A stretch of 64,000 nt of DNA from Clostridia bacterium (GTDB lineage: Bacteria > Bacillota > Clostridia > TANB77 > CAG-508): the NCBI GenBank assembly GCA_017404545.1, contig JAFRCC010000018.1, positions 372,001 to 436,000 of the forward strand. Reading direction: 5' to 3'. Made by a program: the position numbers and the translations under genes. The notes beneath the pieces are model-generated. The model made no database searches, was not told the origin of the DNA, and worked only from the letters and a program-made list of their open reading frames with translations. Shown piece after piece: positions 375 to 17,105 of this stretch. Each line of letters opens with the position of its first letter. The first letter of the stretch is position 1.

Positions 375-878
375 TTATAAATACTTCCAAACGAATCCAC
401 CTGCAGACTTTAGCGTTCCTCTACAACATGCTTGAATGTTATCTCTATTAGTATTTCCCTCTCTTTCCGCTTCAGCTGCAGAACTATATACTTTTATCAA
501 ATTACCGTCTTTTGAGTATTTTCCTACTTTTTTTAATGGAATTTTTCTTTTGCTCTTATAATCTTCTTTAAACTCGTTAAGAATATTATAACTTTTTCCT
601 TTTCTAGAATATTTGGTTATTAATGTTTTTTCTATTCTCTGTGCTACCCAGCGATAGTATGTTTCAGCCACTATTTCATGTTTTATATTGTTCCAGCCAT
701 ATCTTAATATAGCTTCATAAAAATCTTCATTATTTTTATATCCTTCTCCATTATCCCATCTGACTTTTGGATTCTGAGTTAAACCCACATATGTTTTTAG
801 ATTTGGACAAGTATGTATGTATATATAATATGGTTTTTCTTCTCTAAAGTTTATATTCTGTTCAACAATATTAGACAT
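375..878 (-). CDS. GIY-YIG endonuclease-like protein with NUMOD-type C-terminus
   Basis: The 167-residue protein starts with a GIY-YIG-like nuclease core (residues about 16-47, with YYIYIHTCPN, then YVGLTQ, a conserved Arg in KVRW and a GY pair). It ends with a C-terminal segment (about 118-167: VGKYSKDGNLIKVYSSAAEA, then a GxVWKY end) typical of the NUMOD1/IENR-type DNA-binding repeats of phage homing endonucleases. Such enzymes cut DNA at a target site to spread themselves. It overlaps the upstream sigma-like gene by 8 nt and has its own AGGAG site, so it is translationally coupled. Nothing suggests it interrupts another gene. Specific target unknown. Confidence 0.7.
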   Translation of the reverse strand: MSNIVEQNINFREEKPYYIYIHTCPNLKTYVGLTQNPKVRWDNGEGYKNNEDFYEAILRYGWNNIKHEIVAETYYRWVAQRIEKTLITKYSRKGKSYNILNEFKEDYKSKRKIPLKKVGKYSKDGNLIKVYSSAAEAEREGNTNRDNIQACCRGTLKSAGGFVWKYL

Positions 879-1734: not shown

Positions 1735-2334
1735 TCAAAAATCCTCAGTAGTAAGTTCTTTAAGTATATGTCTATCATATTTTTCATTAGTTTCTAATAT
1801 TTCTAATAAACGAGTCCTACAACTACTTTTTTCGTAATCTGTTGCCCATTCATTACTCCTAATGTATTTTATTGCTCTGTCTATTTTTTCTTGCTGTCTT
1901 TTTATTATGTATAATACTTTTTCTCTAATCTGCGGTACCTCCATTATTGTTTCTTTATAAAATAATTCTATTGCCTCTTTACTATTTTTAATAGTTTTCG
2001 GACACCAATAACATATTTCATCTAATTCCTTTATATTTCCTATATCTCCTCTATTTTCTTTATATTCTCTATATGTTTGTTGTAGTGATATATTTTCTTT
2101 TTTCTCTACCATTGCCTTTATAGCCTTTAATACATATTCTGCTTTATCGCAGCAACATGCAACACCCTCTGTTTTTTTAAAATATTTTTCAAAAAAACTT
2201 TTAATTATAAAGTCTCCATTCAATAATTGTCCAAAGAACCAGTAATCATCGAAGCCTTCTTTTTCAGCTTCCTCTGAAATCACTCCTAAAATTTGGATTA
2301 ATTTATTTCTTGTTATTTCTTCATCAATACTCAT
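1735..2334 (-). CDS. Prophage protein of unknown function, 199 aa
   Basis: The protein (MSIDEEITRNKLIQILGVIS...) is mostly helical and contains a CCC cluster followed by Asp-Lys-Ala-Glu near residue 85, and later a CYWCP motif, so a metal site is possible. I chose the internal ATG at 2334 because GGAGG lies 9 nt before it; the longer start at 2343 would sit directly on the GGAGG. It is the first gene of the left part of the early operon, and the unusual tRNA gene lies just upstream in the opposite orientation. No family recognised. Confidence 0.6.
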   Translation of the reverse strand: MSIDEEITRNKLIQILGVISEEAEKEGFDDYWFFGQLLNGDFIIKSFFEKYFKKTEGVACCCDKAEYVLKAIKAMVEKKENISLQQTYREYKENRGDIGNIKELDEICYWCPKTIKNSKEAIELFYKETIMEVPQIREKVLYIIKRQQEKIDRAIKYIRSNEWATDYEKSSCRTRLLEILETNEKYDRHILKELTTEDF

Positions 2335-2354
2335 TATTTTCATCCTCCAATGTC

Positions 2355-2383
2355 TTGAATTTCTTTCTTGTCTTTGCTATAAT
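2355..2383 (+). promoter_or_regulatory. Sigma-A-type promoter for the class II tRNA gene
   Basis: TTGAAT (2355-2360) and a perfect TATAAT (2378-2383) are separated by 17 nt, on the strand opposite to the early operon. The expected start near 2390 lies about 28 nt before the mature tRNA 5' end. A small hairpin (AGTCT...AGACT, 2395-2413) lies in the leader. Confidence 0.7.
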
Positions 2384-2417
2384 TCAGTTACCGTAGTCTG
2401 CTCCATGTAGACTTCAC

Positions 2418-2503
2418 GGAGAGTTGGTAGAGTGGCTTATTGCGTCACACCGATAATGTGATACATCTTTTTAGGTGTCGCGGGTTCGAATCCCGCACTC
2501 TTT
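2418..2503 (+). tRNA. Class II (long variable arm) tRNA, Ser-like body with GAU anticodon
   Basis: All cloverleaf elements can be drawn. Acceptor GGAGAGT/ACTCTTT (two terminal G-U pairs). D-arm GTAG/TTGC with A14, G15, G18-G19 and A21. Anticodon stem TCACA/TGTGA with loop CCGATAA. Variable arm ACATC/GGTGT, then C48. T-arm GCGGG/CCCGC with loop TTCGAAT. The body and 5-bp variable arm resemble tRNA-Ser, but the anticodon at 2452-2454 is GAT, which would read Ile codons. Position 33 is C instead of U. Position 73 is T and no CCA is encoded; a T-run follows directly. A consensus promoter precedes it. It may be a real odd tRNA, a regulatory tRNA mimic or a decaying copy. Confidence 0.75.
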
Positions 2504-2505
2504 TT

Positions 2506-2646
2506 TTATTTCCTGTCATATAATCCACGTGTAAAACTATATACCCCAAACATTAAGCTATATATTCCTAATGCATTATTCTTTCTAAAAAATACACAAC
2601 CTATAATAATACAAACCAGTCCAGCTATTATGTAATATTTATTCAT
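2506..2646 (-). CDS. Small membrane protein, 46 aa
   Basis: The ORF starts with ATG at 2646-2644 after a GGGAGG site and encodes MNKYYIIAGLVCIIIGCVFF, then RKNNALGIYSLMFGVYSFTR and a short basic end. There is one clear membrane span (residues about 5-20) and probably a second. It ends 3 nt from the 3' end of the oppositely oriented tRNA gene. Small membrane proteins are common in phage early operons; role unknown. Confidence 0.55.
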   Translation of the reverse strand: MNKYYIIAGLVCIIIGCVFFRKNNALGIYSLMFGVYSFTRGLYDRK

Positions 2647-7867: not shown

Positions 7868-7901
7868 TTTTTTTTATAATGTGGACATGGAGGTGATACT
7901 A

Positions 7902-8552
7902 ATGAAACCTGGAGATACATTTCAAAATAGACTATCAACAGCATTACGCATACGAAATATAAAACCTGTAGAATTGCATGAAATGACTGGTATAAGTGAA
8001 AGTCTACTGAGTAAATATCTATCTGGGAACGCAATTGCGAGACAAAAAAAATTAAGTATATTATCTGATGCCTTAGATATTAATCCAGTATGGCTTATGG
8101 GTTACGACGTACCTATGTCAAATCAAGATTCTTCAACTAATTTGGATGATAAAATATCTAGCAAACACGTATTTCCGCTTCTTGGAACAGTAAGAGCAGG
8201 ATATGACTACTTAGCAAGTCAAAATATAATTGGATATATTGCTATAGATAGAAATATACCTGATGCAGAAAATTGTTATGCTTTAAAAGTAATTGGTGAT
8301 AGTATGCAACCCGTTTTATATGAAGATGATATTGTAATTGTTCATAAACAAGAAGATGTAGAAAGCGGTCAAATAGGAATTGTACTAATTGATAACGATG
8401 AAGCAACTGTGAAGAAAATCGTAAAATATGATAATCATATAGAGCTTGTTGCTCTAAATCCGTACTATCCTATACAAAAGTATACAGATAAAGACAACTT
8501 TAAAATAATTGGGAAAGTTATAGAAGCACGTATAACAAAAATATTTGAATGA
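7902..8552 (+). CDS. CI-like phage repressor (HTH plus S24 LexA-like peptidase)
   Basis: The 216-residue protein has an XRE helix-turn-helix (residues about 10-65, with LHEMTGISESLLSKYLSGNA). It has a C-terminal S24 autoprotease domain: Ala99-Gly100 is the likely cleavage pair (VRAGY), Ser134 sits in IGDSM and Lys171 in ATVKK. RecA-stimulated self-cleavage would link induction to DNA damage. The start at 7902 follows GGAGGTGAT; the GTG at 7881 has none. It faces the Cro-like gene across matching operators and keeps the lysogenic state. Confidence 0.92.
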   Translation: MKPGDTFQNRLSTALRIRNIKPVELHEMTGISESLLSKYLSGNAIARQKKLSILSDALDINPVWLMGYDVPMSNQDSSTNLDDKISSKHVFPLLGTVRAGYDYLASQNIIGYIAIDRNIPDAENCYALKVIGDSMQPVLYEDDIVIVHKQEDVESGQIGIVLIDNDEATVKKIVKYDNHIELVALNPYYPIQKYTDKDNFKIIGKVIEARITKIFE

Positions 8553-9721: not shown

Positions 9722-9825
9722 CTAACTAACAACACTTTTGAAAGTATTGATATATATATTATACACTATATATGCCTCTATTTTCAAGAGTTTGTTAAAC
9801 ATACTTGAAATGGAGGTATTTTTAT

Positions 9826-11151
9826 ATGGAACAAAAAACAACGATAGATTTTAAAGAAATGCTTTCACAAATGATGGAATTACAAAAACAATTAGAAATT
9901 GCAAATGATAATACTATAACACAGAAAACCGAAAAAAAGAAAAAACGTAAAGAAGGCTCTTACGAATTATATAATAATGGAAAAGCAAGATTGTACTATA
10001 TGCATAACCAGGTAAAATATAGAACAACCGTTGATGCTGAAGATGAAGAACAAGCTGAAGCACAACTTGCTCTTTTTGTTGAAAAAGTAAAAAAGGGTGC
10101 ATTTATATCAACCAATTATACCTTTACTGAATTTGCTCAAATTTGGCTTGACCAAAAAGTTCGACCTAATGCTGGAGAACGTTGCGTAAAAAAATATATA
10201 GGTGCTTTAAATAACAGAATACTTCCGGAACTTGGAAACTATAAATTGAAAGATTTAACAAAACAAATTCTTGAAAGATTTTTTAATCAAATAAAACAGA
10301 CTGAAACAAACTATGAAAAAAGAGCTACCAACAATATAGTAAAACCATCTTCCGTTCTAAAATGGAAATCAATAATACATGCTTGTCTGAATTATGCAGT
10401 TGAATGTGAACTTTTAATAAAGAATCCTTGTGATAATATAAAAATAAAATTCACTACTACGCAAAACGAAGAACAGTTAATTGCATTAGTAAAAAATAAA
10501 AAAGAAAAAGTATGCTACTATGATTTATCAACATATAAATTCGTTTGTAATAAATTAGAAAATGAATTTATGGAATATTACAAGGATGATACAATTACAG
10601 CTGATAAAAAATTATTAGAAGTTGCTAGAAGGTTTATATTATTACTCGCATTAAAAACTGGTATGAGACGTTCTGAGATTTTTGGATTAGCTCGAAATGA
10701 TACCTATTATGATCTTGATTTAGAAAATGCAACTTTTGAAGTCAATAAATCAAGACATTACCTATCTGGAAAAGGTAAATTTACTAAATATCCTAAAAAT
10801 GATACATCAATACGAAAAAAATCTCTTCCAAAATCGATTTTAAGCTATCTAAAATTATATTATGAACTACTTGATAGAATTGGATATACAGATACCTATA
10901 TTTTTGATTTCATGAGCATAGATGGTATTTGCTCTTTTTTCCAAAACTGGCAAGAAAAAAATAATATAAATAAAATAAGATTTCATGATTTAAGACATAC
11001 ACATGCTACTATTCTTCTTTTTTCTGGAGTAGATGTTAAAACAATTTCAGAACGTTTAGGACATGCTGATATACAAACCACTTTAAATATATATGCAGAT
11101 GTATTAGAAGAACTTGATAAGAAAGCTGCAGATGCACTTGATACAATATAA
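9826..11151 (+). CDS. int: Phage tyrosine integrase
   Basis: The 441-residue protein has a coiled N-terminal extension (1-45), a small AP2-like DNA-binding region (about 46-90), a SAM-like core-binding domain (about 95-205) and the catalytic domain. The active-site residues are visible: Arg281 (TGMRRSE), His387 and Arg390 (HDLRH), His413 (LGH) and the nucleophile Tyr423 (NIYAD). The start at 9826 follows GGAGG. It integrates and excises the prophage by site-specific recombination; the neighbouring tRNA-Asn is the likely host site. Confidence 0.95.
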   Translation: MEQKTTIDFKEMLSQMMELQKQLEIANDNTITQKTEKKKKRKEGSYELYNNGKARLYYMHNQVKYRTTVDAEDEEQAEAQLALFVEKVKKGAFISTNYTFTEFAQIWLDQKVRPNAGERCVKKYIGALNNRILPELGNYKLKDLTKQILERFFNQIKQTETNYEKRATNNIVKPSSVLKWKSIIHACLNYAVECELLIKNPCDNIKIKFTTTQNEEQLIALVKNKKEKVCYYDLSTYKFVCNKLENEFMEYYKDDTITADKKLLEVARRFILLLALKTGMRRSEIFGLARNDTYYDLDLENATFEVNKSRHYLSGKGKFTKYPKNDTSIRKKSLPKSILSYLKLYYELLDRIGYTDTYIFDFMSIDGICSFFQNWQEKNNINKIRFHDLRHTHATILLFSGVDVKTISERLGHADIQTTLNIYADVLEELDKKAADALDTI

Positions 11152-12366: not shown

Positions 12367-12442
12367 TGGCTCCTCTTGTTGGACTCGAACCAACGACCTA
12401 TCGGTTAACAGCCGAGCGCTCTACCAACTGAGCTAAAGAGGA
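12367..12442 (-). tRNA. tRNA-Asn (GUU)
   Basis: A 76-nt cloverleaf with encoded CCA (TGG at 12367-12369 on the plus strand), acceptor TCCTCTT/AAGAGGA, loop CTGTTAA giving anticodon GTT, and T-loop TTCGAGT. It lies just downstream of a 5S rRNA gene on the same strand. Confidence 0.95.
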
Positions 12443-16354: not shown

Positions 16355-16399
16355 TTTTTTTCATTCTCCTATTGTAAAAAAAAATAAAATATAATAGTG

Positions 16400-16595
16400 G
16401 TGAAACTTAAGTAAATTTTACGGTTTAGGTCTAGTTGAATTTCTCTATTTCCTACCAAACATTACTGTTTAGCTGTTTCCATTTAAAGGAAATAATCAAT
16501 AGATTAATTGATTACCAGACAGCCACTTAAATCCGTACTTTAATCCTCAAATTCCCATGCCTATCGACAAAACATTCTAGAAGTTTTCCTTAATA
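16400..16595 (-). ncRNA. Candidate noncoding RNA, unassigned
   Basis: About 190 nt without a credible ORF, between a promoter-like pair on the minus strand (TTGCAA then TATTAT, about 16627 to 16602) and a T-rich end. A stable hairpin (AATCAATTAA...TTGATT, near 16495-16515) and a GGAAATAATC...GTTTCC-type pairing are visible. No known family is recognised. Confidence 0.3.
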
Positions 16596-16679
16596 CACTA
16601 AATAATATACTAGTTTCTTTTGCAATAGTGATTTCATAACCAACAACAAATTATCATTTTGGCCAAATTATCATTTGTT

Positions 16680-16958
16680 GTTACACGGTTAATCCCAAGA
16701 CTATCACTCAAAACAGGCTACACTATATATTGTGTCTTGGCACTTTATATAGGTTTATACTACCATATACAATATTAAACCAATTGTATACATAGCCTCC
16801 GCGACAATAGGGTATTATTATGTATGCCATTACATAATTCCCTAAAATCTTTACTCCCTGAAAACACACAAAACTGGCATTCCGCGCATAAACAAGAAAC
16901 TTCAACGATGTGCCCTTTAGTGGATTTTTAGCCCCACCCTCGTATAAAACTGTGTAAC
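16680..16958 (-). ncRNA. Structured noncoding RNA, about 279 nt, unassigned
   Basis: The minus-strand transcript would be closed by GTTACAC (16958-16952) with GTGTAAC (16686-16680). Inside are several perfect hairpins: GTGG...CCAC near 16933, ATTATGTA/TACATAAT near 16825, TATACAAT/ATTGTATA near 16780, and CCAAGAC/GTCTTGG near 16740-16700. It is followed at once by a long hairpin (AACAACAAAT/ATTTGTTGTT) that could end transcription. An 83-codon ORF crosses it but lacks a ribosome binding site and protein-like features. It is not tmRNA, RNase P or SRP RNA by their signature motifs. The large clostridial raiA-type RNAs are one family to test. Confidence 0.5.
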
Positions 16959-17105
16959 TAGAATAATGCACCACTGAATTATATCTTACTATATAATTTT
17001 TTTTTATTCAAGATATTTTTGTTTAAAAATATCACGTAAGAGTCATTATACACTATATTCTTTTTTTTGTCAAATGATACTTATTTTTAATTAATGAGAT
17101 TATAA

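Follow-up and report, generated by a model that had tools for sequence, protein, structure and literature searches.

Solitary serine-type tRNA-like genes with a GAU anticodon and an open acceptor end in a Clostridia prophage and other mobile elements

A prophage of a Clostridia bacterium carries a tRNA-like gene in which a serine-type body is joined to an isoleucine anticodon. The window, i.e., the whole stretch of DNA analysed, is 64,000 nt long (contig JAFRCC010000018.1, positions 372,001 to 436,000). The prophage is about 34.3 kb long and is integrated at a tRNA-Asn gene, which remains intact; its 17-bp att core at 12367..12383 (-) is the 3' end of tRNA-Asn, with a second copy at G000:C3:350064. 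The tRNA-like gene at 2418..2504 (+) occupies the gap between two lytic-operon genes of the opposite strand, one coding for a protein of 202 aa with no function assigned (1735..2343, -) and the other an ORF of 46 aa (2506..2646, -), whose stop codon abuts the tRNA and which is retained in the sister prophage. The CI-like repressor (7881..8552) and the tyrosine integrase (9805..11151) are coded on the plus strand, as is the tRNA, and the lytic operon on the minus strand. Because of this strand layout and the intact tRNA-Asn, the gene points in the lysogenic direction and is not a substitute for the tRNA at the att site. The flanking genes and the att core agree with an earlier note on this DNA, which had placed the tRNA in a prophage and antisense to an operon. 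A homing-endonuclease-like gene with a GIY-YIG type match is also present in the lytic operon at 375-878 (-), and OLE RNA (Rfam RF01071, 349 bits) was recognized at 16381-16990 (-), beyond the prophage.

ARAGORN called the tRNA at 2418-2504 (+) with anticodon GAT (GAU at 2452-2454), and the Rfam tRNA model RF00005, a covariance-model check that had been proposed for it, gave 44.9 bits, well over its gathering score of 29. Together with arm assignment, they define a class II serine-type tRNA-like RNA (positions 1-73) with a 7/5 acceptor branch, a D-arm of 18 nt, an anticodon stem TCACA/TGTGA with the loop CCGATAA, G15, and a T-arm GCGGG-TTCGAAT-CCCGC. The long variable arm at 2462..2479 (+) consists of 1 nt, the stem ACATCT/AGGTGT, a 4-nt loop, and C48; its stem is of 6 bp and not of 5 bp as previously claimed. 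The acceptor stem is GGAGAGT/ACTCTTT, both outer pairs are wobbles (G1.U72 and G2.U71), position 73 is U, and CCA is not encoded; it is encoded in nearly all other host tRNAs. A T7 tract at 2501-2507 overlaps the 3' acceptor strand, and the T-arm hairpin with this tract resembles an intrinsic terminator (2480..2507, +; 1 found vs. 0.5 expected in shuffles). The serine-like class II body, GAU anticodon, C33, G15-C48, weak acceptor end, and U-tract described in the earlier note are thus all borne out. A host tRNA-Ile(GAU) was not found in the assembly, which has little weight, as tRNA-Ile(GAU) genes usually lie within ribosomal operons, and such operons assemble poorly.

A promoter-like site TTGAAT-N17-tgcTATAAT with an extended -10 is at 2355..2383 (+). 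Of the perfect promoter claimed for it, the 17-nt spacing and the strand opposite to the operon stand, and the perfect match does not: 10 of 12 consensus positions match, and the site taken alone is at chance level, with 10 promoter-like matches found in the AT-rich DNA here vs. 16.9 +/- 4.7 expected. The sister prophage lends the site some support, as it retains TTGATT-N17-TATAAT although the surrounding region has diverged.

The search of other prophages for the same tRNA, also proposed earlier, gave at least ten relatives (at least 11 members with that of the window), i.e., the sister prophage, eight other phage records, and one plasmid. They represent about six lineages, and members of one lineage are not independent. 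For the viral search, 2.9 million contigs were scanned for a motif that combines D-loop, GATAA, and T-loop, and at least 78 stretches matched. The patterns required the T-loop and the anticodon letters, with GUU/GGU as a control, so the exclusivity of GAU in the family is partly by design, GAU being the anticodon searched for. The true class II GAU tRNAs listed fall into two kinds, those mostly on tRNA-rich contigs and solitary genes. Solitary are the genes of the sister prophage (L502/L508), of Pseudomonas-like phages (L504, L506, and L554), of rhizobial-like phages (L503, L505, and L507), and of L501 and L552. When flanks were compared in BLAST, L510 was assigned to Pseudomonas phages, L511 to an Agrobacterium phage, and L512 to Rhizobium phage PPF1, while L513 was called rhizobial-like from its tRNA alone. 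A tyrosine integrase is present in five of the nine virus records, and two of the remaining four are short fragments. The member L761 is on a contig with RepA, ParA, and integrase, which by these genes is taken to be a plasmid. One carrier was found among 347 genomes of the Bradyrhizobium order. A 14.2-kb plasmid-like contig from this order (L765) has a tRNA of the same type near resolvase and DNA methylase genes.

No real carrier was found in sets of 57, 195, and 391 relatives, in 299 Pseudomonas genomes, and, judged from the matched letters only, in 299 genomes of the Terribacillus order. An exact 27-base pattern and loose anticodon patterns gave nothing or almost only chance matches in viral contigs, and BLAST of the family tRNAs against phage, plasmid, and E. 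coli collections either gave nothing or recovered no more than ordinary phage tRNAs, which were mostly tRNA-Ser in the cases checked. Homologues of the flanking 202-aa protein were tried as a route to relatives and led to unrelated phages without the tRNA; a flanking 127-aa protein, searched for in 145 family genomes, was found in its own genome only. A description of the family is absent from the full-text literature searched, a corpus without most subscription papers.

That these genes form a real structural family can be stated with high confidence. The GAUAA loop and one geometry are common to all members found. In ten aligned members, the D-arm is of 18 nt, the anticodon loop is C(U/C)GAUAA (in one case UUGAUAA), and the variable arm is made up of a single base, a stem of 5 or 6 bp, a 4-nt loop, and C48; the variable stem of L761, read by eye, is of 7 bp. 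In this alignment, pairing reaches 98-100% in the anticodon, variable, and T helices, and 12 of their 16 pairs show double changes; for the variable stem itself, the figures are 98% and 5 of 6 pairs. Covariation scored 0.726, compared with 0.240 in shuffles, and 17 pairs have double changes vs. 11.9 in shuffles. Only pairs 1-72 (formed in 3 of 10) and 2-71 (formed in 1 of 10) are poorly kept, and the latter is never Watson-Crick in the family and is G.U in the window. A 2-71 mismatch occurs in 9 of 11 members vs. about 4 of 476 other class II tRNAs (~1%), a set from which seven repeat copies of family loci were removed; many seemingly broken acceptors among control tRNAs are ARAGORN start shifts. 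The acceptor ACGGGGG/TCCCCCC of the rhizobial type could slip by two bases to give a G5:C5 helix. Altogether, the acceptor end is open or weak in all members.

All ten phage copies are opposite in strand to their flanking genes; for L554, its synteny with L509 was taken into account. The neighbours (C5-methylase, portal, exonuclease, DUF5131, or tail and amidase genes) differ between phages. The rhizobial-type members L511, L512, and L513 have in common only the tRNA of about 90 bp, and the tRNA is absent at the homologous site of Rhizobium phage PPF1. The pattern is one of cassette-like transfer between unrelated phages. In a tree of 86 tRNAs computed from 81 columns, with the anticodon and outer acceptor pairs omitted, the family is at six places among tRNA-Ser genes, and a one-origin clade occurred in 0% of 200 bootstrap trees; one origin is not formally rejected (AU p=0.085, weak tree of 81 columns). 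The closest class II tRNAs outside the family are tRNA-Ser for nine of ten members. Because of the six separate placements, the serine body with GAU looks repeatedly selected.

SerRS ignores the anticodon, and the bacterial serine set includes the variable arm, R4-Y69, C11-G24, C72, and G2-C71, with G1-C72 and G2-C71 conserved in most bacterial tRNA-Ser (PMC9976931). The family is similar to bacterial tRNA-Ser in the long variable arm with serine geometry (11 of 11 members), R4-Y69 (11 of 11), and C11-G24 (9 of 11), and differs from it in the GAU anticodon and in the loss of G1-C72 and G2-C71. The window copy has kept the long arm and G4-C69, and a U11-G24 wobble replaces C11-G24. Bacterial isoleucine determinants are A73, C4-G69, U12-A23, and C29-G41 (PMC9976931). 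The bacterial tRNA-Ile feature of GAU with A37 and A38 is present in the window loop CCGAUAA; A73 and C4-G69 are replaced there by U73 and G4-C69, and C29-G41 and U12-A23 are absent from the ten aligned members.

The closest known system in spirit is that of allo-tRNAs (Mukai et al. 2017), above all their destabilised UAU group. Allo-tRNAs also have a serine-type class II body with a long variable arm and a non-serine sense anticodon, with UAU, an isoleucine anticodon, among the commonest; the destabilised UAU group is linked to a transposon-related ORF and is nonfunctional in E. coli translation (PMC7609411). In contrast to the 7/5 branch with open outer pairs in the family, allo-tRNAs have an 8/4 or 9/3 acceptor branch (PMC7609411), and the family differs further by GAU, by its occurrence mainly in temperate phages, and by its position antisense to phage operons. 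Class II GAU tRNAs of lytic-type phages (L444, L469, L480, L517, L571, L580, and L586) likewise have GAU on a body with a long variable arm, but they lie in tRNA arrays and have paired acceptors and mostly A73; exceptions among array-type genes are one first-pair mismatch in L580 and U73 in L522. The control scan for long-arm GTT/GGT gave many class II tRNA-Asn(GUU) genes in tRNA-rich phages; their acceptors are paired, and position 73 is mostly G. A long-arm body with a foreign anticodon is therefore not rare in itself, and the open acceptor end is the rare part. The distinguishing mark of the family is the combination of a solitary antisense gene, serine body, GAU, and open acceptor.

Because the serine body, GAU, and the weakened end recur together, the gene is best read as one for a weakened tRNA of serine type that is expressed in the lysogen and causes missense at AUU/AUC codons, a reading to which we give a probability of roughly 0.38; expression, charging, decoding, and benefit are what we infer. 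Phage copies, being written against the lytic operon, would probably be expressed in the lysogen from their own promoter. SerRS, blind to the anticodon, would still recognise the long variable arm and core and charge the RNA with serine, and the GAU anticodon would read AUU and AUC. Loss of G1-C72 and G2-C71 would keep charging, EF-Tu delivery, and stability low, and such a weakened tRNA may be tolerable in a lysogen and become harmful or regulatory once its level or its folding is altered. Foreign anticodons make tRNA-Ser toxic in yeast unless additional changes weaken it, those in the acceptor stem and discriminator included (PMC6827378). Several points speak against this reading. The outer pairs opened in nearly every lineage could equally reflect selection against charging, and constant mistranslation would require a benefit. 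The window copy has C33 and U73, lacks CCA, and runs into a terminator-like U tract before the acceptor is complete, so it may never become a mature tRNA.

In broader terms, the family consists of small genes of mobile elements, mostly temperate phages, and these genes probably act on translation in the infected cell. It is rather doubtful that this is a mobile gene class recoding a sense codon in the lysogen, in which a repeatedly evolved, acceptor-weakened Ser-tRNA(GAU) would have isoleucine codons read as serine to a controlled extent and might act as a conditional toxin on superinfecting phages. Solitary prophage tRNA-like genes are easily overlooked or annotated as odd tRNA-Ile, and a recurrent, cassette-like family with a serine body, isoleucine anticodon, and open acceptor points to a selected function hidden by standard annotation. 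Natural sense-codon missense or prophage tRNA mimicry is directly testable with a construct of about 120 nt.

The alternative that survives best, possible if tentative, is a non-translating decoy or inhibitor, i.e., a mimic of the tRNA-Ile anticodon loop on a stable serine-type body that is not usefully charged at its open acceptor end. It would soak up or block a tRNA-directed enzyme (anticodon nuclease, modifying enzyme, synthetase, or stringent factor) and so serve lysogen defence or counter-defence. The earlier note had raised both serine at isoleucine codons and a mimic or decoy. The open or weak acceptor ends throughout the family, the lack of an encoded CCA in the window copy, and the nearly constant anticodon loop agree with the decoy, and phage tRNAs are reported to counter tRNA-cutting defences (PMC10264068, PMC11555353). 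However, luring an anticodon enzyme would not require a serine body every time, a linked nuclease is not seen, and neighbour genes vary between phages. An uncharged mimic accounts for the open end as well as the missense tRNA does, and for the serine body less well.

A regulatory RNA switch is unlikely. In it, a leader hairpin and the tRNA domain would be rivals for the 5' acceptor strand; the RNA would control the antisense lytic operon, or the tRNA would be set free only on a signal. Folding predicts a hairpin, absent from the earlier note, CCGTAGTCT / AGACT-tc-ACGG at 2391..2419 (+), whose 3' arm takes in tRNA positions 1-2 (G1, G2). The tRNA body and nearby downstream DNA of the sister prophages are nearly identical and the promoter and leader about one quarter diverged; both alleles retain TTGANT-N17-TATAAT and, when folded, a hairpin, which in the sister prophage is of other sequence. 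At p>=0.95, the outer two acceptor bases pair within the 45 nt preceding the tRNA in 7 of 10 members, those of the window and most non-rhizobial phages, vs. 13% of solitary control tRNAs, and L506 has a 14-bp inverted repeat. In a 7-base pairing measure, however, most family leaders do not beat shuffled leaders, the hairpin was not seen on folding of rhizobial-type members, and the positive members amount to about four lineages. In L552, a promoter-like site is immediately 5' of the tRNA, and the leader therefore would not be transcribed. The predicted hairpin as a functional part is suggestive, secondary evidence. When L508 is compared with the window, the junction between diverged upstream and near-identical downstream DNA falls in the 5' acceptor strand, which suggests recombination inside the tRNA gene between the sister prophages.

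Decay of captured tRNA-Ser genes with a drifted anticodon is improbable. It would explain the weak acceptor end, C33, and missing CCA of the window copy, but no damage is seen beyond the outer acceptor pairs and the cassette has moved, it appears, between unrelated phages. Degraded relatives with broken stems had been named as the sign of a pseudogene, and the relatives instead keep internal stems nearly all paired with compensatory changes. By these alignment patterns, a small gene has apparently been maintained, and decay at random does not account for it.

Least probable is that the gene simply supplies the phage with tRNA-Ile from an unusual body, or that it makes up for a host tRNA that was lost when the phage integrated. 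Class II GAU tRNAs do occur in lytic-type phages, and the replacement tRNA of Fionnbharth likewise has a promoter of its own and lies on the opposite strand (PMC10865867), but isoleucine determinants outside the anticodon are mostly absent, and the att-site tRNA-Asn is both intact and of a different isotype. Lysogeny that depends on a tRNA, as in Fionnbharth, also based on a solitary tRNA of a temperate phage, was rejected; there, a disrupted host tRNA is replaced by the same isotype (PMC10865867), whereas here the 17-bp att core rebuilds tRNA-Asn and the phage gene has GAU.

Among the other long-arm tRNAs encountered, class II tRNA-Ile(GAU) with A73 in arrays (L444, L469, L480, L517, L553, L571, L580, and L586) combines the isoleucine anticodon and discriminator on a long-arm body. 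The tRNA of L748 (479-567, -; G630:C88) is a tRNA-Ser(UGA) with the anticodon loop CTTGATA, i.e., with T at position 37. At viral loci L630-L746, 97 of the 121 pattern matches listed are class II tRNA-Asn(GUU) in tRNA-rich phage contigs, possibly an under-described type of phage tRNA.
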